Part shown: in pieces, positions 1-13,415 of the stretch
Numbering within the stretch: the stretch's first letter is position 1
Layout: every line of letters starts with the position of its first letter
DNA from: Saksenaea vasiformis B4078
Lineage: Eukaryota > Mucoromycota > Mucoromycetes > Mucorales > Saksenaeaceae
DNA length: 18,223 nt
Direction: 5' to 3'
Assembly: GCA_000697055.1 (NCBI GenBank)
Contig: JNDT01000529.1
Span: forward strand, 1-18,223
Made by a program: the position numbers and the translations under genes
The notes under the pieces: generated by a model
Databases searched by the model: none
The model's input: only the letters and a program-made list of their open reading frames with translations
Told to the model about the DNA's origin: nothing

Positions 1-39
1 TATCTATCATTAGTAGGAAGTCAGCACAATAAGTTTACA

Positions 40-859
40 TTAATAGCCACGAGGCGTACCAGCATTGTTTACATCAACGTTAGCGCTACTGGTGGGTATG
101 TCCTCGTTATCACTCTCACTGGAGTCATAACGATCGCTGTTCTCATACGCCTCTTGACTTTCCACGTTATCAGCTGGAGCATACCAATCATCATCGAACC
201 ACAATGCATCTGCGTCCTCATTAGCACTGCCTATATTTCCAACTCTATCTTGCGTTATATCCGTAACGTCCAGCGTTTGTAGATCCTCTGCTAGACTCGC
301 TACGGATTCTACTGGTAGCTCTGCTGTAGGACCTTGACTGGCAGTAGCAGTTGCGACTGATCTCCGTTCCGGCTCATTCGGATTTACACTATTTACAGGT
401 CGGTTCTATAGCGAAAGTCTTGTATTGATACCTTTGACCACCATATGACGGATTCCCTGCACTCGTTTCACCTTGGTTATAGGATCGCAGGCACGGGATG
501 ATGTGTCTATTGAAAACCCGTCTACTGTAAGTTGTCTTATACCAGCTGCACTGCACTCCGTCATCTGAGCGGTTTGAAGCATTTGTTCGCATGCGTTTGC
601 GCGATTGTTCCATGATTTTCAAAGAAATTTGACAGAGAAAGGAGTGAAAGCGGAGTTGTCCTGAAAGTAGTTCCCACGATTCCTGTTTCAAGATAATAAA
701 TATTGATTAGTCAACAGCCAATTTGAGTTTAAGATTTTCTCACGTTTTAACAGTATCCATAGCGTTATCATGCCTAACCCTCCCAGCAACAGATCGGTTT
801 TGACATTGCTCAACGATACCATACTTCCTGTTCTCCGTAGAATAGACTGCTTGACGAAA
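40..859 (-). pseudogene. Decayed transposon-type protein, C-terminal part
   Basis: One minus-strand frame can be followed from about 859 down to a TAA at 40-42. A plausible 61-nt intron (683-743, GTGAGA donor, GACTAATC branch region, CAG acceptor) joins a segment reading RKYGIVEQCQNRSVAGRVRH to NRGNYFQDNSAF without a frame change. The frame is then broken by an in-frame TGA (619-621) and TAG (406-408), and continues into a long acidic Ser/Asp/Glu-rich tail (DRYDSSESDNED near 110-150) ending NAGTPRGY. The basic patch followed by a low-complexity acidic tail resembles the C-terminal region of large transposon-encoded proteins in Mucorales, but I cannot name the superfamily from this piece alone. 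It lies inside the element whose terminus is proposed at 1913. Two nonsense codons argue for a dead copy; strain-specific readthrough or extra introns around the stops are less likely. Confidence 0.5.
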
Positions 860-1519
860 TCAAGAAAAAGCAAGAGGAAATACTTCGTTTGCTGAAGGAA
901 AACGAGATTCCTCCTGCGGCCTCGGAAGAAGAAACGGCGGCCATTGAAGACGAAAGGACGCTAGAAAGACCAACAAATATGGTGAATGGTAGGAGACGAG
1001 CAGCCAAATTGACTGCCAGGGCGTTCAGGGAATATGTCTGCCAAAGATTCTTTGAAGGAGACGAACCAAGGGCAGATAATGCACTTTGGAACCTCTCTGT
1101 CCTCGTGAAGGCAGTTATAGCTGATATTGGTTCCAGTCTGCCAGTCAATGACAACCCCCGTCTCTTGGAGTAACCTGGCGCAAGAGGTGCAAAACAAAGC
1201 AATCTCTGAAGTGGAACGCCAGGCCTCTCAGACGGGGATCATGCTCCAGCGATGCAAGAATTCCTGGGCAGCAAATGGCTTCTCCAATCAAAATGGGGAA
1301 ACCAATATCAATATCAGAACTTGCTGCGAAAGGTAACCCAGAACTATAGTGCTCGAGAGATTAACAAAAATTTTGACAATATAGAACTCTGATAATGTGA
1401 ACTTGTCAGAAGAGTAAGTAAGCCATATGTTGTCATCATGCAAATGAACTAATACATTTGTGCACAGCGAAGAAGAGGGTGACGAACGTCCGGCGAAAAG
1501 GCACCGCAACAGACTGTAA
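838..1519 (+). pseudogene. Decayed unknown gene, probably internal to the left transposon
   Basis: After a possible acceptor (CTCCGTAG at about 831-838) the plus frame opens with a charged helix (NRLLDEIKKKQEEILRLLKE), then TARAFREYVCQRFF and DNALWNLSVLVKAVIADIG, and stops at 1171-1173. The reading continues in a second frame (VSWSNLAQEVQNKAISEVER, from about 1160) and a third (KWLLQSKWGNQYQYQNLLRK, from about 1272). The switches fall at a C5 run (about 1156-1160) and an A run (about 1271-1273). A convincing 54-nt intron follows (1414-1467, GTAAGTA donor, ACTAATAC branch, ACAG acceptor), leading to a short acidic/basic last exon, DEEEGDERPAKRHRNRL, with TAA at 1517-1519. One more frame change is needed just before that intron. 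I do not recognise the family. Its 3' end points toward the proposed element terminus at 1913. Confidence 0.5.
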
Positions 1520-1689
1520 AAATTTATTGTGGATAATGTGTCTTTTACAAATGTAGACCCTGAATTTGATGAAGTGAAATAAAGAGTAGAGTTAATTGGT
1601 TACCACAGAAAAATACCATATGTAAAGTCCTAAGGTCAGCAGAATTATCCTTGTCAATGCATGAAAGAGCTCGTGAAGTAATTTTGGTT

Positions 1690-1913
1690 GATGGCTGTCA
1701 CGGTATTTCCATGATGCATCCAAGATCAATCCTGTAGATAATCCTGGAATTAAAGGATAAACGCAGGATCTATCACGGAATCTGCTATCATGGAATTTCC
1801 GTGCTTATTGTAAAATTATCGTGGAACTATCCTGTACACTATCATGGAATTCCGTGATGATCATGGAACAATCCTGGAAATTGACAATTTCCAGGATTAT
1901 TTTTCCCGTAGTG
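1690..1913. repeat. Palindrome-rich subterminal zone and CACTA-like transposon terminus
   Basis: The stretch repeats, in both orientations, short motifs of the type ATCATGGAAT / ATTCCGTGAT and ATCCTGG / CCAGGAT. Examples are 1772-1780, 1787-1803, 1818-1826 and an imperfect palindrome at 1841-1858. It ends with a perfect 14-bp inverted repeat around one base (1870-1883 and 1885-1898), followed by a T-rich run and CCCGTAGTG ending at 1913. Read from the other strand the edge begins CACTACGGG. Known CACTA (EnSpm) elements have CACTA/TAGTG ends and arrays of short subterminal repeats where transposase binds, so this is read as the right end of an element extending left. The opposite end and the target-site duplication are not in the window. 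Confidence 0.5.
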
Positions 1914-2060
1914 ATGTCTTCTTGATTCACCAACACTGGGTGCAATCAAACGAAAAGCTACTGAAGAACAGACTTAAGTACCTTTTTTTCCTTTTCCATG
2001 TGTCCATTGTACCCACTCAAAACGCATTCATTATTCTCCAATCACAATACTGATATATAG
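1914..2060. other. Spacer between the two mobile elements
   Basis: AT-rich DNA between the proposed CACTA-like end and the GC-rich tail of the Fanzor locus. I see no convincing coding frame; the short open frames here have no family resemblance. The outer boundary of the Fanzor element probably lies in or just left of the TATATA-containing stretch near 2050-2060, but no terminal inverted repeat pairs with it in the 5.2-5.5 kb region by eye. Confidence 0.3.
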
Positions 2061-2307
2061 ACTTTCGCGTGTTCCCGCGAGCCCCCGGAGCCCCCAAGAG
2101 TGCGCACCGTCTCGTGTTTTGGGCTGAAAACTAGATCGTACAAAGGGAAATGCTGCTGATAAAACTTTCATATTCCCCCAAGAGTGCAAGCCATGGTTGC
2201 CCTCCGGGCTTAGATGATTGCTCTGAGGCCAGTTTGCAATTTTACAGAATGAAAAGGCTATGGGCCGGCGAATGGGACAAAGGGCCAGTTTCAAAGGGCA
2301 GTGCTAA
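2061..2307 (-). ncRNA. Candidate Fanzor right end / omega-RNA region
   Basis: The 250 bp immediately downstream (minus strand) of the Fanzor stop codon is clearly more GC-rich than its surroundings. It contains a 13-mer direct repeat (minus strand GCACTCTTGGGGG, at 2091-2103 and 2175-2187), a short GC hairpin (GCCC-TCC-GGGC, 2199-2209) and a C/G-run segment at 2075-2100. In TnpB and Fanzor elements the guide RNA is transcribed from the 3' end of the nuclease ORF into the right end, with the guide specified by DNA just beyond the element edge. The position and structure fit that arrangement, but the RNA itself is an inference and its 3' end cannot be set from this single copy. Confidence 0.4.
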
Positions 2308-2595
2308 CTAGTTGATGGATGCGGCTGTGTGATCAGCTGCGTTCGTTCGGTGGAAAGGAGGAGGACGCTCGTTTTCGTTCCGCATCATGTACATGAAAAC
2401 CTTCCAGATGTTACTGGCGGCCATGCGGTCCCGATCCCAGAAATTCGCCGTGCATGAACTGTTTTGACACTTCAACACAGCGTGGATCTTCGTTGCATCT
2501 TGTTTTTCCTTGGCATTCTTTAAATCGCGTATACCACAGAGAGGACAGATTTGCAATGTCAAATATTCATCTATCATAAAGACGAAAGTAGGAAC
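2308..2595 (-). other. Fanzor last exon: zinc ribbon and RuvC-III
   Basis: After the 44-nt intron 2596-2639 (GTAAGTG donor, CTCTAG acceptor, phase 0) the exon reads VPTFVFMIDEYLTLQICPLC, then LKCQNSSCTANFWDRDRMAA. The CxxC...CxxxxC pair is the RuvC zinc ribbon, and the second Asp of the WDRD stretch matches the RuvC-III metal ligand. The Glu of MIDEY sits where Fanzors and some TnpBs carry a relocated catalytic glutamate; this is from family knowledge and not testable here. This exon itself is free of stops or frameshifts, ending in a short tail NAADHTAASIN. Confidence 0.85.
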
Positions 2596-5217
2596 CTAGA
2601 GACAGGTGTGAGTAATGTCCTGCCTTGAATATCACTTACACTTCGTTGTTTTGCCTTCTGTTTGAGTTTGCTGACTATTGCCTTCGTTGGTGCAGCTGGT
2701 CTGCCTTTCATACTCCCGGAGAAGGCGGCATTCCCGTACGCGATGATGATCGGACGGTTTCTTTCGTCGGCTTCATCATTCGGCGAACGCGGCACCCATT
2801 TTTTCTTGCTTGCTTTTTTCATGTTTTTCGTATTGTTGTGATCGTATTTCACGCTCCCATACAGGAGACGATTAGCAATTTCATTTGTTCCTTTTTGTCT
2901 TCCGATGTAGGATTTGAATTTCAATTTGCTATATCTTAAAGTAAAGTTGTCAGTGCAAAGAGACTGTCATTCCCACAGTATACCTGAGGTCGCGGTAATC
3001 CTGTCGTAATGGGTGAATATGTAGGACATTGCCGAAGTCATTTCTCCCAAATCTACTGTTTTCAGCGAGGGAATCTTATCGATGATAGATTTCGTTTCGG
3101 GTTCTTTCTCAAGGTAAGAATTTCGTAAGCGAGTCGCATGATTAAATCCACAAAGAGAATAATACTCTTTGGTTGTGGTTCGGCGTATCTGTGGGCTGTA
3201 TTACCATCTCCATCCGCAGCCACGAATAAACTGGAGACCCCGGGGTCGACGCCCCAGATTACTGCGTCTGGATACTTGTCTTTGATATCGGCCGGCATAA
3301 GGGCTTTTCGCTTCGGATCGAAAGGAGTCTTGTATTTTTTAAAAAGGCACTCAATATCCACGCCATTGGTGCGGATTGTGTCCCTATGAACCATGTCAGA
3401 AGTACTCCCAAAAAATCGTACAAATTTATCAAAATATCGAAGTCTCTGTCTCAAGACTTTCAAAGGTTTTGTGCCCGATTTTCGCCATATCAAACGCGCG
3501 GAAATATCCGCGCTGGACATCTGCTGTTTTCCAGGCCGAGTCACTATCACGCATACCAGCTTAGTGAGCAATCGACCAAACGCCTGACTGTCGATGGTTA
3601 TATGTCGCATCTGGAGACTGTACAGCGGAAGGATCGTAAATCTTCTTGATCCTTTTGGGTCCGTGTATTTGTGCGGGAAAAATGAATCGTTTTCAATTGA
3701 ACTTGTGGTATCTTTGATAAACTTCTCAACAGCTATGATCTCTGTCTCCGGAAGGGTTTTGATCTTCTTTGGTAGTTTTAGAGCGGAACGATTTTTGATA
3801 GCTGTTCTGATTGCGTACTTGAGACTTGACACGATTGGCTTGGACATATTGCTCATGTTTACTAACTATAACGTAGATCAGTCGCCGGATGTATAGCAGG
3901 CAAACATTACCTCTTTGGTCTTTCGATGAATGTACCCTAACGATACATACTTCTGCTGTTTTGGTTCTTTGATTGATACCTTTTTGTTAAAGCGTTCCAG
4001 AATATGGAAGAACCAAGATAAAAAGAGATGCGGTTCGGCGTTCAGTATCTTCTCGTCAATCTTGCTGATATCAATGATTTTCTGAACCGTTGCGACTTGG
4101 TCATTTACATATTTTCGATTCTCCTTCGTGCGCGGAATCGAGCCAGGCCAAGAGTGGTCGTCACCACAGACTTTGTGATAGATTATATCCGCGACCATTC
4201 GGCGATCTTTTATTGGTAATGCTTTCAGGACAGCAGAGTTATCGCCGTCAGACATGCACACCAGCAAGTATTGTTTGGTTCGTCTTTCAAAGTTCTCTGT
4301 AACGTGATTTCGGATTGTTTCTTCGTACTCCTTCGAAGCTGAGGAGATGATTGTCATGAATCCTTCGGAATGAAATTTGAAGGATCAAAGCTAGGTATCA
4401 ATAGCTTGAATGCGGCATACGTTTCTTGCAACGTTGCATCCGAATCTTTGCCGTAACCAGCGATAAGCGAGAACATGTTATAACAGAGGCTATGCGTAAT
4501 CTGCGGCAGTTGCTTTTTCTCAGAGTATAGCTTTGTGAAGTAATAGTTTGCAAACACCGCCCCGGCATATGTGATATCTCTCTCATTTTTTTTACACAGT
4601 TTACGATGTGGCCGGTAAGGTTCGGGTCGCGCCAGACCGTGCTGAGCGATGCCTTTATCACGCTGGTGCGCTTGAAATCTTTGGGCGGTTTCCGCTTTTT
4701 GACGTGCTTTTCTCACAGTTTACTGGTGCTTCTTTGATGGTCGGTCTTGCCACACGTGGGACAACGCGATTTTCTTCCCTTTGAGTGTAACACCTCTCTT
4801 CTTTCTTTTGCAATCTTTGCTCGTGCTTCGCATTTTGCGTCCCGCTTGCCATATGCTTTCTCAGCCTTGGCAAGCGCCTTCGACTTTTTAGTTGACGTAC
4901 TCGCTGAGGTTTGATAAAATTAATGACATATGAAATCTGAAAGTGGTCATACCTGATGTAGAGGCCACACCAGGATCGTCCTCAGACGATGATGGAACGG
5001 AACGGTGATGAGAACTACTGCCGGCTTCAGACAGAGCTACCGCTTTTTTCCTTCCCTTTTTCTATCTTGAAATAATGTCAAGTCTTTTTTTTCTTATCTT
5101 TGGAAAAAAGTCAAAGGAACTCCTGTACGTACCTAACCGTGTTTTCCTGTGTATTTTTATGGGAGGTTGGAAATCTTCGTCGTCGGGATCCAGTTTGGGC
5201 TTTTCTGATGATTCCAT
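2308..5217 (-). pseudogene. Fanzor (eukaryotic TnpB-like RNA-guided nuclease), degenerate copy
   Basis: Fanzors are eukaryotic relatives of TnpB that cut DNA guided by an RNA from the element's own 3' end. Here about 2,700 coding nt (roughly 900 aa) are seen. Exon 1 starts at ATG 5215-5217 (MESSEKPKLDPDDEDFQPPI). A zinc knuckle (RCPTCGKTDHQRSTSKL) follows near 4720-4765, then a helical region (4.0-4.7 kb) and FTILPLYSLQMRHITID near 3600-3640. RuvC-I is AVIWGVDPGVSSLFVAADG, with Asp at about 3245-3247. A RuvC-II-like block is IIIAYGNAAFSGSMKGRPAA (about 2700-2760). The zinc ribbon is CPLCG...KCQNSSC and RuvC-III is NFWDRDRMAASNIWKV; TAG is at 2308-2310. Clean introns: 4904-4952, 3866-3910, 2596-2639; a first intron about 5062-5132 has mismatched phase. 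Defects: TGA 4713-4715, frameshift in the A8 run 4586-4593, frameshift at about 4357, frameshift at about 3110, TGA 2967-2969 (a weak 48-nt intron could remove this last one). Family assignment is strong; activity is unlikely. Confidence 0.9.
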
Positions 5218-5517
5218 TTTTGATGAGACAACAAGGAAAAAGAGAGAAGTCAGATCAATTTCGTGCGATTTGTATGATATGTACTACAGTCACATTAATG
5301 CGATCATTGCAATCGTCAAAGTGAACGAATCCATTTGATCAGTTACATCTAAGAAAAGGCAAGCGGAGCAAATCCAAGGACGACATTGCTACCGGGAACA
5401 GGTGGGGAATTGATGATGTACTTCAAGAAGACCATCCGTAGATATATGTCACACGCGGTCGTCTCGTAAAAAAAAACGCTAAACTAAAAAATAAAGGCCG
5501 GTAGAAGAAACGCACCA
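5218..5517. promoter_or_regulatory. 5' flank of the Fanzor gene
   Basis: AT-rich, with no convincing frame on either strand. It should hold the Fanzor promoter and the left end of its element, but I could not find a terminal repeat matching the right side. Short broken plus-strand reading such as PRTTLLPGTGGELMMYFKKT near 5375-5435 suggests old coding debris. Confidence 0.3.
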
Positions 5518-5799
5518 ATGAAGCATTACAAAAATTCGCATCACATAGGAGGACTCGAAAAAGTGCTGCTTGCTGAGAACGCTGTGTATACTTGGAGGAG
5601 ACTTTAGGATAATCCTGAAAATCTTACAACAGTGATGTATCAATTTTATGCGTCTGATATAAATCCATACGGCAGGGGAATCAAAAGGACAAGGGCACGA
5701 CTGTACGATTCAGTCATACAAAGTAAGCAAACTTCATGTCAGATACTGGATATTTGCTTCTTGGGAGCCGTAAAGGATTCCGAAACTCCACCACGCTAG
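5518..5799 (+). pseudogene. Short coding relic with one nonsense codon
   Basis: A 93-codon plus-strand frame from ATG 5518 to TAG 5797-5799 carries one internal TAG (5605-5607). On both sides of that stop the reading is protein-like: HHIGGLEKVLLAENAVYTWR before it and DNPENLTTVMYQFYASDINP, then RARLYDSVIQSKQTSCQILD, after it. The family is unknown to me. Its position between the Fanzor 5' flank and the 3' end of the membrane-protein gene, and its decayed state, suggest debris of a larger gene or element. Confidence 0.4.
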
Positions 5800-5811
5800 A
5801 TTACCATTAGT

Positions 5812-6267
5812 TCATCTCGAAACTTTGATATCTTTTTTTTTCTCAATAACCATGAGGATGTAAGGCTTTTGCTGACAGAAAAAAAAAAGCAGGGACAGCA
5901 GGATCAATAGTAGCAGGAAGCAAGAGCCAGTATGTTCAATGCGATGGCGGATGTCCAGAAGTTTTGTAGATATGAAATTGTTTTCCGAATCGAAAGATGA
6001 TGAATAAATATGCAACGTCTGACCGGCCGATCTTCTAAGAAATATGGTTGATTGAAATGGTCGCCGCTGTACGATAGTACAAACGTTTCTAAAGAGGACG
6101 CACTCATTTTATTTAGAAGGGTCCGTTTGAAAGGGATGACGTGTGATGTCCGAACACACAGCATTCATTAAACTTTCGGGTGTTCCAATGAGACATGACC
6201 ATCCTCCATACACGGAGAAAAAAGAAAGAAACAGAACGGTAACAGAAAGCAGGGCTGGTATGGTCAT
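5812..6267 (-). CDS. Small predicted type I membrane protein
   Basis: From ATG 6265-6267 the frame begins MTIPALLSVTVLFLSFFSVY, a textbook signal peptide, followed by a short Cys-containing ectodomain (GGWSCLIGTPESLMNAV). It ends with a strong transmembrane segment (about 5868-5912, SCFLLLLILLSLLFFFC) and a basic tail, EKKKDIKVSR, with TGA at 5812-5814. A TAA interrupts the frame near 6114. A 69-nt, frame-keeping intron (GTGTTC donor about 6183, TTCTAAAT branch, CTTTAG acceptor about 6115-6119 on the minus strand) would remove it, giving a protein of roughly 125 residues; otherwise it is a nonsense mutation and this copy is dead. The topology (signal peptide, ectodomain, one membrane pass, basic cytosolic tail) suits a cell-surface or secretory-pathway protein. 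I do not recognise a family. Confidence 0.55.
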
Positions 6268-7219
6268 TGCAGTTTGGGTCTCTCAGTCCATAATGCCATG
6301 CGGATAAACGCCAATGAAACGGTGTTTTGCGCTTTTTAGTCCAATCAAGGCTCTCAGTTAAAAAAGACTATTTCCTTAGTAAGAGGTCCTTTTCTAGATT
6401 ATCGCGAATAACTTGTTGCAATAGACAGAAGGCAGAATGTGTCAGGTGTGATTTAAGGTATTCCGCATATTGGACTATTAAACAAGTGAATGAACTGCCG
6501 GTATGAGAAGTTGCTTTGAATAACAACGACCGATGAAGAGCATGCAAAGATGTGACACAATTTCTCTAATTAAAGTCTATTGCAATACTCCGAAAATGCC
6601 GAGAAAATGGTAACGAGTTGGGTTACCACCATCTCTTTTATCCTCGAGCAGACAGATAACACAATGGAGGCGCCGCAAGAAAAAAAAAGAAGAATCTTTT
6701 TGAGAGAGACAGTATATCATAAGAACGATCGTGATTCGTCAATTTTCTTGGTCATAACCGAAGATTTATTTTTCAGGAACTCCGCTGAAGCTGGTTTATC
6801 CTCTGTCAAGCATTCTTGGACAGATGAATCTGAATAGAGTTTTCAGGCACGGAGGATCTACGCTTAGTGTGTGTCTCAGAGACGACATCTGCTAAGCCAT
6901 AATAGGGAAAAATGTAGTGTTTGGTTTCACAATCGCCTAATTAAGGTGTCTGTACCACACTACATACACTTTGATGTACCGCTGCAACCTACACAACAAC
7001 AACATATTGTAGCTGTAACAAAGGGAATTCATGCTACAGGGTCGTATTTTCCATTGGAATGGTCTATGGGAAATCTACTCCTTACGAATAGACGAACGCA
7101 TTTGCAGCTAAACTGCACTACAAACTGAATGTCGGTGTGACGTGCCCACGTTTTCAGCTACTAGTTTTTAACAGCGATGCTTCCCTTCAAGCTTCAGCGT
7201 TCCTTTTCTTTCTTTCTTT
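6268..7219. other. Intergenic stretch between divergent genes
   Basis: About 950 bp separate the start of the minus-strand membrane protein from the start of the coiled-coil gene. Open frames at 6580-6837 and 6871-7128 (plus) have no recognisable domain and no splice support, and I do not call them genes. The last 20 bp before the ATG at 7220 is a pure pyrimidine tract (CTTTTCTTTCTTTCTTT type), which fungal promoters often show just upstream of start codons. The rest probably holds both promoters. Confidence 0.5.
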
Positions 7220-10152
7220 ATGGTAGATAAAGTAGCCAGTGGTGGGACCAAAACAGGACCGCCAACGACAACAAAGCGAAAGTCTGTGCTTGGAGAGCTG
7301 GGCATTAAACCTGGCGGACCAGGACAGCCAGCAGCGAAACCAACCACCACAACCCTGAAAAGGGCGCATACAGTGACAGGAACTGCTGCTGGTCCTGCTC
7401 GCTCGACCACAGCATCATCAGCGCAGAAATCGGGATCGACTCGACCTCGCCCTTTGTCTGTCGTCTCAAGCTCGCCATCGGCCGGTGTACCGGCATCACC
7501 TCAGCGATCCACGAGTTCATTAAGCAGAACAAGTAACTCATCAACAGGTAGTGCCACGAGCAAGACAGTTCGCAAAAAGGCTACCACCCCAACCGCCATA
7601 TCAACTACAAGTGGCTCGCGCAATGCTCCAGTAGCATCACCTACGACTCCAACACCGTTGCCTAAGCGACGATCGGTTGTTCCTACTACATCCAGTCAGA
7701 AACAGCAATCCGGCTCGCCCCTCGTTCGAAGATCCTCCGTCGTCGCCTCATCCACACCCGCTGCAACCAAACGCAAATCTTCTCCTGCTGGACTAGAGTC
7801 CCTTCAAGAAGTGAAGACACTGAAGGATAAGGTTTGGGCAACAGTAAAAAACATAAAATAAAATATGAAAATACTAAAAGGAAGGATAATTGTAGCTGGC
7901 GGAGAAGGAAGAATTGCTTAAGAAAAGCCAGGATGCGATGAATGAGTTGCAGAGCAAAATCGAGCAGTTGGAAAAGGAACGCGCAGAACGACAAGCAGAA
8001 GCTCAGACGCCGTTGTTATCCTCCTCATCCCATCTTATACCCTGTGAGTTGTCAGTAGATTCCGAGCACTTGTACGAAACCAAGATAAGGACTGTGGTAA
8101 GGAAATACACAGCAGTTATCGCTTTTCTTTTTCTGATATCAAAAAACAAAGGGCGAGAAGGAGGTGATCCGAGTGGGTGTGGAAAAGAAACAGAATGAAG
8201 CCGATGCGGAGAACAAGGAGGTAGTGAAAATTGAGGGAAAAAAGAAAAGATGGCGAAGTGTGTCTCATGCTGTACAAAAGGTTGAGCCTATTACAGAAGA
8301 AGTTAAACAAGCATTAAAGGTAAACAAGGATGCACTACAGCTTAGGCTTTTAATTTAACGATGTCACAGGAACAAATCAAAGAAGAAATGAAAGCAGAAA
8401 TTACGCAGTTGCAACAAACAATAGACGAAAAAGGAACACAAATGGAACAATTAAAAAAAGAGTACGAACAAGAGCGCCAAATGCTAATGGGTGACCATGA
8501 AAAAAAGTTAATCGAACTGCGAGAGACTTACGAGGTTTGCGATTACCTTTCTATGTTTTACGGATGTGATTCAAACTAGAAGAATTCTATTAGGCAAAAG
8601 CAAAAGAAGCCTCTGAATTGGCCAATCATGAAAAAGAAAGAAGCTTAGCTCACTTAAAAGAGGAACATGAGATAGAGCGAAGCAAGTTGGAAAAACGAGC
8701 AGAGGAAGCCGAGAAATTACTGAAAGAGTCGCGCAATGCGTCCCATATCCTAAAATTAGAGCAGCAATTGAGTGATGCACATGCGTTATTTGAGGAATAC
8801 AAGCGTGAGAGAGAGCAAGCAACTGAAAACTTGGAGCGTCGATTCCGTGACGAGATACAGCAGCTGCAAAATGGAAGCGACGATACGGCCGAAGTATGGC
8901 TTGAGAGAAGTCGCGCATCACAGAGAGAGATTGATCGCTTGCATGACACTGTGCGACGTATGGAGGAGACGCACAAACAGAGTTTGGAAGAGGCAGAACG
9001 AACATTTACGGAACGCTTGGACGAGTGGAAAGAAAAATGTGAGGCGCAAGAGAATGAGATGGATACCCAAGCACAGCGGATTACATCCTTGCTATCTCAA
9101 ATAGACACATTGCATAATTCTCTTGAGGAAGCAACAATACGTCTCGAGGAGCATACGTCCAAGAAATCGAAACCAAGGGAAGATGTTTCGCAAGATACAG
9201 ATGGATCGCTTCATCAAGCATGTGAAGAGCGACTACAAGCTCGTCAGCAAGATATCAATGAGTTACAGAGACGTATTAGCGAACTCAAAGAAGCCCATGA
9301 ATCTCAGTTGAATCGATTGGGACAGGAAAAGGCTCGAAACTTACAGGAGCTCCAAGAAGAAATCACTACATTGAATGAAAAGTGTGAAAGCAACAGTAAA
9401 TTGAACGAGGTAGGGTTTTAATTTATGAAGAGTCCATTCATTTTGATGATTGAATGATCTATTTTAGGAGAGACTCCAATCTATTGTTAAGCAGCATAAA
9501 CAAGAAATTGCACTGCTGTATCAGCAGTATCAGCATTTAGTGGATGCAAAAGATCACGAGATAGAAGATTATGCATATCGTCTCAAAGCGTTATCAACAA
9601 CAAGACAGAAAGAAATAGAGCAACTGAAGATCGAGTCAGCACAGAAGGTTGAAAAGTACGAGCAAGAAATCGAAGGATATGAGGTGAGTTTCATACTATC
9701 AAAAAGATATTTTCCCTTTTTTCGTTTTTGTCTTTTCTATTTATCATTCTCTTTCTTTATTTTCTCTTTCTTCTTCTTTTTACTTTGCGTTGAAGTACTA
9801 CACTCTAATGATTTGAATCCTGTATATAATCTATTCTGTAAAAAAAAAGACAAAGCGACATCTCTTCCTGTTTTCCATCATCCCCCTTTCACATCCAAAC
9901 TACCTTCTTTTTTCGATTTTTATTCTTTGTTTTTATAGAAACGTGTCCGAAATTACGTTGAAACTATTCAAGGATGGGAGAATCATAGGATTGCAACCGA
10001 ATCGATCCTGGAAAAACTTAAAAAGGATTATAATGCTTCTCGCGATGAAAATGAACAACTATCGCAGTAAGTACCCGAATAGTTCTCGAAGCATCTTTCT
10101 AACAATGGCCTGCAGTTTGATCACTAAGCTACAACGCGAATTCCATAAATGA
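7220..10152 (+). CDS. Large coiled-coil protein with basic Ser/Thr/Pro-rich head
   Basis: Eight exons join into one 784-codon frame: 7220-7843, 7896-8096, 8152-8319, 8370-8534, 8594-9409, 9468-9683, 9939-10066 and 10116-10152 (TGA). All introns are phase 0 except the last, which is phase 2. Residues 1 to about 200 are basic and rich in Ser, Thr, Pro and Ala (for example SSTGSATSKTVRKKATTPTA), typical of a disordered microtubule- or filament-binding head. From about residue 200 to the end the protein is almost wholly Glu/Lys/Gln heptad coiled coil, closing with DYNASRDENEQLSHLITKLQ. The layout recalls CLIP-type cytoskeletal linkers, but no CAP-Gly domain is visible, so that is only an analogy. 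ATG 7220 is chosen because it follows a pyrimidine tract and no better upstream exon is seen. No breaks were found. Confidence 0.85.
9684..9938 (+). other. Unusually long, pyrimidine-rich intron
   Basis: The intron between exons six and seven of the coiled-coil gene is 255 nt with a good donor (GTGAGT) and acceptor (TTTTATAG), about five times the length of the gene's other introns (49-59 nt). Its first 110 nt are strongly T/C-rich on the coding strand and it contains an A9 run near 9840. Joining the flanking exons keeps the coiled-coil frame. Confidence 0.75.
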
Positions 10153-12204: not shown

Positions 12205-13415
12205 ATGACGAACATAACTGCAGTGAATACAACCAAAACGCAGGTCTCTCTCCAGCGTGAATTTCATAAAGATAAATCTTCAAGCTACTGGCTCCCGAAC
12301 GATGAACAAGAGCAGTCTCGCCTTAACCAGGTAGATAAATGTCCACTTCAGGAAAGGGAAAGGCAAAGGAAAGGAACAAAAGACCCACTTTCTGTCTCTG
12401 TAGTTACATGATGTTATGAAGGCATTATTTGATGGGTAAGATTTTGTGGCTTCGTCCAAAAAAGAAAAGAATCATTGTATCATTTACACGTCTTCACAGT
12501 CTTGTTTTATCTAAAGTGCCCGAGGTGGTACCGTTTGCTCAAGGCGCCAAAGTACTCGATGTTGGCTGCGGATCAGGTGCTTGGATCAAGGTTTGTAGCA
12601 TACCAATGCTCAGTCCGCGTTCTTATTTGATAACACGACAGAATATGGCCGAAATGTATCCAAATTCCACTTTTGTGGGCATAGACATCGTAGACGCTGT
12701 CAAAGACAAGCCCTCCTCTGACAAAGTTCAGTTTCGTAATGGTAACGCTGTAGCAGGGCTGGAATTTGAGGATGCCACCTTTGACATGGTCAATATGAGA
12801 TTTATGGTACTCAGTTTCCGCGCTGAAGAATGGCCCAAAGTGATTAAGGAGATCGTACGCGTAACCAAACCAGGAGGGGTTATTCAGTTGTTGGAGCCTT
12901 CTTACAAGGTAATCACAACACAGAGACGCAGGGTTTTAACGCAATTCAGATGGGCGGAAATCCAATAGTCGTCAAAGCGATCCAAGCGCGTGAGTGTAGC
13001 CATTTCGCCTGAGTGATTTCAAGGATTCCTTTTCTGAAGACTACATTCGTAGTGGTAGACACGTGTAACGCGCGGGGTCAGGATGCCTTCATTGTTGACA
13101 AATTAAGTGGGATTTTGACAGACGCTGGGGCCCCGGTTGTTCAGAAGCAGGACGGGATCGTTAATCTATGTAAGTTATTATGATTTGCTCTACCCCAGCA
13201 ACTAAATGAATATAAAAGCATCGAAAACACCTGTAGCAGAAGGTCTCGTATGGATGTGGACAAACCTCTTCAAATCTATGCTACCCGTCATTAAATCTAC
13301 TCTGAGTGTACACACAGAAGAGGACGGACGTCGATTTTTAGAAGAATTGAATGCCGGCTATATAACTTCCGACGTCTTTAGTCATCATATAATGTTCGTA
13401 GCTCGGAAGGACTAG
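12205..13415 (+). CDS. Class I SAM-dependent methyltransferase
   Basis: Seven exons encode 287 aa: 12205-12330, 12404-12435 (a 32-nt microexon), 12500-12590, 12642-12908, 12950-12989, 13059-13169 and 13219-13415. The protein starts MTNITAVNTTKTQVSLQREF with a family-like SSSYWLPNDEQEQSRLNQ. Motif I is VLDVGCGSGAWI (SAM-binding glycines), the acidic loop is FVGIDIVDAV, and later strands are FDMVNMRFMV and VTKPGGVIQLLEPSY. Such proteins in filamentous fungi are UMTA/Methyltransf_25-like enzymes of unknown small-molecule substrate. The microexon and intron layout is mirrored in the second copy at 17330. Intron 12591-12641 is 51 nt and free of stops, so retention would add 17 residues after motif I. 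AATAAA is at 13464-13469. Confidence 0.88.

Follow-up and report, generated by a model that had tools for sequence, protein, structure and literature searches.

Which mobile element carries the Fanzor gene found in an 18,223-nucleotide stretch of Saksenaea vasiformis B4078 DNA (contig JNDT01000529.1, hereafter the window), and what could the nuclease have done for that element? Judged from the DNA letters, the window, from a Mucorales genome, probably holds a dead Fanzor1 gene inside a rolling-circle element that is non-autonomous and of the Helitron1 type. The letters themselves contain a Fanzor1 signature, a multi-copy 4.09-kb unit with a TC start and a hairpin plus CTAG at its end, an A|T insertion, and a stop codon placed within the CTAG. 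If this reading is right, a eukaryotic RNA-guided nuclease is tied to a single-strand, rolling-circle transposon, and the role of Fanzor for its element becomes testable against the model of bacterial IS200/IS605 elements. The window is contig C6 of the host assembly (38.7 Mb, 666 contigs).

Identity of the nuclease gene

The gene lies on the minus strand (2308..5217), from an ATG at 5217-5215 to a TAG stop at 2310-2308, and is present as a frameshifted, non-functional copy. By its sequence it is assigned to Fanzor1, a eukaryotic relative of CRISPR nucleases. Along the minus strand, FTILPLYSLQMRHITID (3640-3590) is followed by GVDPGVSSLF (3253-3224), AYGNAAFSGSMKGRP (2741-2697), the cysteines of a zinc ribbon (2547-2452) and WDRDRMAASN (2439-2410). 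A preliminary description of this DNA had claimed a Fanzor locus from such motifs; they do all lie on the minus strand in the order given there, and a profile match to known Fanzors (below) supports the claim.

Hallmarks of Fanzors are DPG in RuvC-I and an alternative glutamate six residues ahead of the zinc finger (PMC10711439; this and the other cited papers are drawn on in excerpt). Both are found here. RuvC-I reads GVDPG (3253-3239, minus strand), with the catalytic Asp codon at 3247-3245, and the shifted glutamate (Ealt; 2566..2568, minus strand) stands six residues before the first zinc-binding Cys in IDE-YLTLQI-C (2574-2545) and is invariant in all four aligned sub-families. An AYGNAAF block occupies the expected place of the canonical RuvC-II, yet lacks a Glu. 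The preliminary description had taken the glutamate-less block for RuvC-II; the real Fanzor glutamate is the one at 2568-2566, in IDEYLTLQIC. It is followed by a C4 zinc ribbon (C-x2-C ... C-x4-C; 2452..2547, minus strand), recognized from the sequence and PF07282, and by the WDRD of RuvC-III (2428..2439, minus strand; catalytic Asp codon 2430-2428). The published Fanzor1 motif is D-X(125,275)-[TS][TS]-XX-C4 zinc finger-X(5,50)-RD (PMC3627910). Its spacing and RD are present, and its [TS][TS] reads TS in F4 and F5, SS in F2 and TL in the window copy, where F1 (that of the window) to F5 label the sub-families in this genome, parts of several of which were read. The N-terminal zinc knuckle of the preliminary description, C-x2-C-x4-H-x7-C, is found at 4763-4713 (minus strand), with a TGA in place of its last Cys codon in the window copy, and the estimated size of about 900 residues agrees with the 884 residues of a spliced relative.

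A profile search had also been named as a check on the assignment. We built a Fanzor profile from the C-terminal parts of four sub-families of the host genome, which are 55-65% identical to the first. In the PDB it matched SpuFz1 (8gkh, E 7.9e-13) and GtFz1 (9cer, E 1.2e-8). Since these two distinct sequences, both Fanzors, are all that was matched up to E = 1, chance is excluded as an explanation of the Fanzor identity. PpFz1, the structure of which is reported as solved (PMC11423790), is absent from the PDB matches of this profile. On spliced window-type sequence, PF07282 scores 27.1 bits, just over its 26.3 cut-off. Two results count against the Fanzor identity, namely a PF07282 score of 24.3 bits on the raw window exon, under the same cut-off, and the lack of a PDB match for the 267-residue open reading frame (ORF) of the window when searched alone. 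Relatives in two protein searches (24 + 4 matches) include proteins from Rhizopus, Mucor, Parasitella, Thamnidium, Rhizomucor, Cokeromyces, Apophysomyces and Radiomyces.

Within the host genome, the 267-residue RuvC-I segment has at least 116 matches. When the 93 of these with E values up to about 3e-7 are grouped within 5 kb, they give 51 loci, some contigs of which are near-duplicates of each other. This Fanzor-rich repeat family belongs to a medically relevant fungal order.

Introns and decay of the gene copies

Introns were inferred from the alignment of copies together with splice signals. The window gene has six, of about 44-71 bp each, located on the minus strand at 5062..5132 (donor position approximate), 4904..4952, 3866..3910, 3384..3429, 2935..2983 and 2596..2639. 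The three introns named in the preliminary description are all correct, and three more bring the total to six. The donor GT of the fourth intron is lost in the window copy, C151 and C13 and kept in C4, C282, C10, C648 and C559.

Besides this lost donor, the window copy carries frameshifts in exons 3 and 5 and the TGA at the last zinc-knuckle Cys; the Fanzor copy is dead. Its broken state had been correctly described before. An intact, active Fanzor in the window was considered and is ruled out by the frameshifts, the knuckle stop and the lost donor. The same description had suggested that intact relatives exist elsewhere in the genome; none was found among the copies examined, which cover part of the 51 loci. 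In an exon-by-exon comparison, all eight window-type copies (C6, C151, C4, C282, C371, C10, C655 and C648) prove to be damaged in one exon or more, C115 being left out of the count as a match of C10. Copies read over most of their length (L024, L026, L047, L048, L069, L070, C544 and C626) each show a stop, a deletion, a frame change or a run-off at the contig end.

Ends and insertion site of the mobile element

When the F1 copies are compared, they form one repeat unit with sharp ends and differing flanks. In the window, this unit is a Helitron1-like mobile element of 4,091 bp (2308..6398, minus strand) that begins with 5'-TCTAGAAAAGG at 6398 and ends with CTAG-3' at 2308. The preliminary description had closed the locus at 5217 and overlooked both the mobile element with its termini and the link to Helitrons; the repeat unit runs on to 6398. 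The 5' leader of the element (5218..6398, minus strand) has no gene assigned and includes a high-copy repeat at about 5945-6207. With a 300-base leader query reaching this repeat, a first look gave 308 candidates; of the 40 matches listed for the query, most span only the high-copy repeat.

Helitron1 elements start with TC, end with CTRR, form a hairpin at a distance of 10-12 nt from their 3' terminus, and insert between A and T without duplication (PMC5148889). The F1 copies start with TC in all six cases with a readable 5' end, and the preceding base is A in five of the six. In gene orientation, the 3' end consists of a hairpin, 9 nt and CTAG. Our tally of 3' ends comprised 14 rows, two pairs of which have common flanks, leaving 12 window-type copies with distinct flanks; 11 of these 12 end in CTAG, in agreement with CTRR. 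The CTAG is followed by TT in 10/11 copies and by TTA in 7/11. In the window it occupies 2308..2311 (minus strand), and TTAGC comes directly after it, as the start of a 3' flank (2247..2307, minus strand) that is the right half of a dispersed repeat, R.

The subterminal hairpin, GCAGCTG-ATCACA-CAGCCGC (2321..2340, minus strand), ends 9 nt before the CTAG and has one mismatch in the window copy. In L009 and L012 it has a perfect 7-bp stem that ends 13 nt from the terminus, consistent with the hairpin of Helitron1, and only 2/500 and 1/500 shuffled sequences, respectively, fold as well. Covariation is weak: 90.5% of cells pair compared to 85.8% in shuffles, but no more than one pair is changed on both sides, which 166/500 shuffles also reach.

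The insertion site can be read from R, which is uninterrupted in C648, C526, C26 (21.6 kb) and C400. The left half of R (to base 114) abuts F1 5' ends at C26:1289-1324 and C21:24024-24059, where the F1 ends themselves lie at C26:991-1291 and C21:24057-24320. In the window (2307-2247) and in C13, it is the right half, beginning with base 114, that meets the F1 3' end. Bases 113 and 114 of R being A and T, the insertion falls between these two letters, apart from an ambiguity of one T. The half-filled and empty R copies, pooled over different copies, thus show an A|T insertion without duplication. Moreover, no target-site duplication is visible by eye in the five distinct-flank copies that have both ends. 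Because the TC, the CTAG, the hairpin and the A|T site without duplication match the definition, we assign F1 to the Helitron1 type.

Ends of the other sub-families

The TAG stop codon of F1 is formed by the final three bases of the terminal CTAG, so that the last three bases of the transposon would directly predict where a guide starts. F2 ends with CCTTAACCTAGTTA in most copies, its stop falls in this same TAG whenever the frame is open, and CTAGTTA is found at the F2 end in all seven copies read. F3 ends with CTAGTTA in 8/8 copies, and its stop lies about 25 nt earlier. The end is CTTGTTA in F5 (2/2) and F4 (3/4), and CTTG is also seen in L052 and L064; as CTTG is not CTRR, F4 and F5 fail the Helitron1 rule for the 3' end. 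In each of F1 to F5, no more than about 45 nt separate the Fanzor stop from the end of the element. Since the end motif is read in different frames or after the stop, it is kept as DNA or RNA and not as protein. TTAACCTAGTTA has 27 matches, against 14 for the reversed control, and 16 of the 27 are at Fanzor ends (14 by letters, 2 by coordinates).

Links to Helitrons

Neither the window nor the window-type loci that were scanned gave a RepHel gene; the element is therefore at most a non-autonomous one of the Helitron1 type. Elsewhere in the genome RepHel genes are present, with 23 matches to PF14214 and 33 to PF05970. RepHel lies beside Fanzor in the same orientation in C457 (L047), C527 (L048) and C184 (L071). 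In C457, the RepHel ORFs span 393-4903 and the Fanzor unit extends to about 9085; the order in C92 is the same by coordinates. On the reverse strand of C184 (1904-2584), one open frame leads from a Helitron helicase straight into a 5'-truncated Fanzor. Some elements may join RepHel and Fanzor in one unit. The C-x2-C-x4-H-x7-C knuckle is common to the Fanzor sub-families and to Helitron N-terminal ORFs (L034, two in L048), and occurs 0 times in shuffled sequence. As a separate observation, C383:72650-73000 (L080) is 97% identical to C527 (L048) over the junction of a Helitron remnant and Fanzor, which is either a duplicated composite or a segmental duplication.

The 5' boundary of F2 and F3 units is provisional. 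A repeat ending in CTGG|T directly adjoins it in C457, in C630 and in copies of F3, whereas C648, C187, C596 and C92 lack this repeat. Its end is possibly a Helitron 3' terminus. The repeat is located at bases 152-207 of the L070 reverse-strand query, and is also found in C637, C70, C406 and C380.

Several observations weigh against a Helitron1-type element with a Fanzor that serves it. At the 3' end, L018 lacks the CTAG and L010 continues with G, and L018, L010 and L017 break the rule of CTAG, T or A. Short imperfect inverted ends, CTAGAAAAGG / CTAGTTAAGG, are present that Helitron1 does not need. The hairpin of the window copy is weakened and not significant, as 120/500 shuffles fold as well. 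The junctions in C26 and C21 are placed from match coordinates and not from letters. The 5' flank of the window is unique and differs from the left half of R, so that the left side of this copy is rearranged, chimeric or the product of a separate event. The proof of the site pools different copies. A search for empty sites with 11 joined flanks matched 0/11 (for L015, the 5' point of the join was misplaced). A Helitron protein was found in 3/30 sources scanned, and those three had been chosen for Helitron hits on the same contig. Finally, no sign of an omega RNA was obtained by folding, where the last 114 nt do no better than shuffles (z 0.09), by an Rfam search, or by looking for additional conservation of the DNA where the ORF ends. 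For the last of these, the two final 50-nt blocks of the ORF share 68 and 65% identity with L018, which is no higher than in the other blocks, or lower. Likewise, hairpins in F2, F3, F4, F5, L052 and L064 fold no better than shuffles (205, 349, 84, 194, 217 and 353 of 500, respectively).

Possible role of the nuclease for the element

In bacterial IS200/IS605 elements with TnpB, transposition is of the HUH single-strand kind, the nuclease gene lies at the element end, and a hairpin is subterminal. The window element resembles this layout in the idea of a nuclease gene at the element end together with a subterminal hairpin. It differs in being eukaryotic and intron-bearing, with an active site of Fanzor1 type and no TnpA. 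The omega RNA overlaps the ORF end in ISDra2, and by 17 codons in GtFz1 (PMC10432273).

The element, which appears to have no transposase gene of its own, was probably copied in trans by the RepHel of a Helitron, as RepHel genes exist in this genome. An intact Fanzor may have used an RNA transcribed from the element's 3' end, with the hairpin and CTAG as the last part of the scaffold and the adjacent host DNA as the guide. Such a nuclease could have cut sites without the element and so favored its retention or spread; the window copy itself is no longer capable of this. In this scheme, Mucorales Fanzors would have re-created the IS200/IS605 plan inside Helitrons: HUH rolling-circle activity would move the DNA, the 3' hairpin and stop-bearing CTAG would be at once the terminus of the Helitron and the 3' limit of the guide scaffold, and each insertion would write its own guide from its flank. 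We put this re-created plan forward tentatively, as an idea that is rather doubtful at present.

The Fanzor gene could instead be a passenger, captured by Helitrons in the way that host genes are and doing no RNA-guided work for the element. Such a reading competes with the proposed mechanism, leaves the anatomy untouched and is compatible with the Helitron assignment. The many broken copies, the 5'-truncated Fanzor joined to a helicase in C184 and the missing omega-RNA signal in folding, ORF-end conservation and Rfam are all in favor of capture. However, DPG, Ealt, the zinc ribbon and RuvC-III are kept across sub-families at 55-65% identity, and the stops of F1 to F5 near the element end make up a layout not expected to arise repeatedly from random capture. 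We therefore see a passenger as possible, though with the odds against it.

Alternative modes of transposition

The absence of both a duplication and long inverted ends could also mean that another recombinase that leaves no duplication, a tyrosine or serine enzyme as in Crypton- or IS607-like elements, moved the element. Crypton is among the reported partners of Fanzor1 (PMC10711439), and the CTTG end of F4, F5, L052 and L064 departs from CTRR. For the window sub-family, however, the TC, hairpin, CTAG and A|T together fit the definition of Helitron1 (PMC5148889), and CTAG is shared by all of the F2 and F3 ends read (7/7 and 8/8), so, judging by these ends, we find such a recombinase improbable.

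Another candidate is a DDE element, MuDR-like or otherwise, that has terminal inverted repeats (TIRs) and makes target-site duplications. Precedent in Mucorales comes from Bao and Jurka (2013; PMC3627910), who reported Fanzor1 in such elements from Rhizopus, Phycomyces and Mucor, and the short imperfect inverted ends give some likeness. This candidate is rejected as very improbable because the five copies with both ends and distinct flanks show no duplication by eye and the empty-site comparison leaves at most one ambiguous base (T).

Comparison with known Fanzor elements

Two kinds of Fanzor1 carrier described by Bao and Jurka (2013; PMC3627910) are relevant here, namely Helitron2 in Chlamydomonas and, in Rhizopus, Phycomyces and Mucor, elements that are MuDR-like. 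The Helitron1-type Fanzor1 element favored here differs from these previously reported carriers, and no description of Helitron1-type Fanzor elements in Mucorales was recognized in the literature searched, which was mostly without subscription journals. For genome annotation, such an element would explain the Fanzor-rich repeat family of this fungal order.

A close parallel in anatomy is with CRe-1, 2, 3 of Chlamydomonas reinhardtii, non-autonomous Helitron2 elements that also carry Fanzor1 without RepHel and also leave 5'-truncated copies with preserved 3' ends (PMC3627910), as seen here in L020, L022, L025 and L048. In contrast to the TC...CTAG ends, A|T target, missing duplication and stop codon within the terminus of the window type, the Chlamydomonas elements have two hairpins, asymmetric inverted repeats, a TTTT target and often duplications. 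ROr-4, PBl-3 and MCi-4, which are MuDR-like and from Mucorales, are similar in carrying Fanzor1 without a transposase gene; their MuDR TIRs and 9-bp duplications (PMC3627910) were not seen in the F1 copies compared.

At the protein level, the window type shares with SpuFz1 (8gkh) and GtFz1 (9cer) the DPG of RuvC-I, the alternative glutamate six residues before the zinc ribbon, the C4 ribbon and the RD of RuvC-III. It differs in a longer N-terminus with the C-x2-C-x4-H-x7-C knuckle, in its six introns, and in C-x4-C as the last zinc-binding pair of the window copy, which moreover is broken. SpuFz1 is reported to lie in a TIR element (PMC3627910, PMC10432273), unlike the window Fanzor.

Host genome and neighboring genes

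The preliminary description had also claimed a fungal host. This is borne out by an ACT-domain host gene in the window (11520-11101, minus strand), with its nearest match in Apophysomyces (84%) and the next in other Mucorales. This places the host among the Mucorales, in the vicinity of Apophysomyces. C13 is a 95% copy of window positions 1-4176 with the same insertion present, which indicates allelic or duplicated contigs in the assembly.

Adjoining the element, multi-exon ORFs at 7172-10150 (plus strand) are charged and look like coiled coils, and a Pfam search with them gave zero matches above the cut-off. A methyltransferase-like coding stretch lies at 12420-12968 (Methyltransf_25, E 3e-13). 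A second such stretch at 17551-17838 matches Methyltransf_23 below the cut-off, and its translation resembles that of the first.

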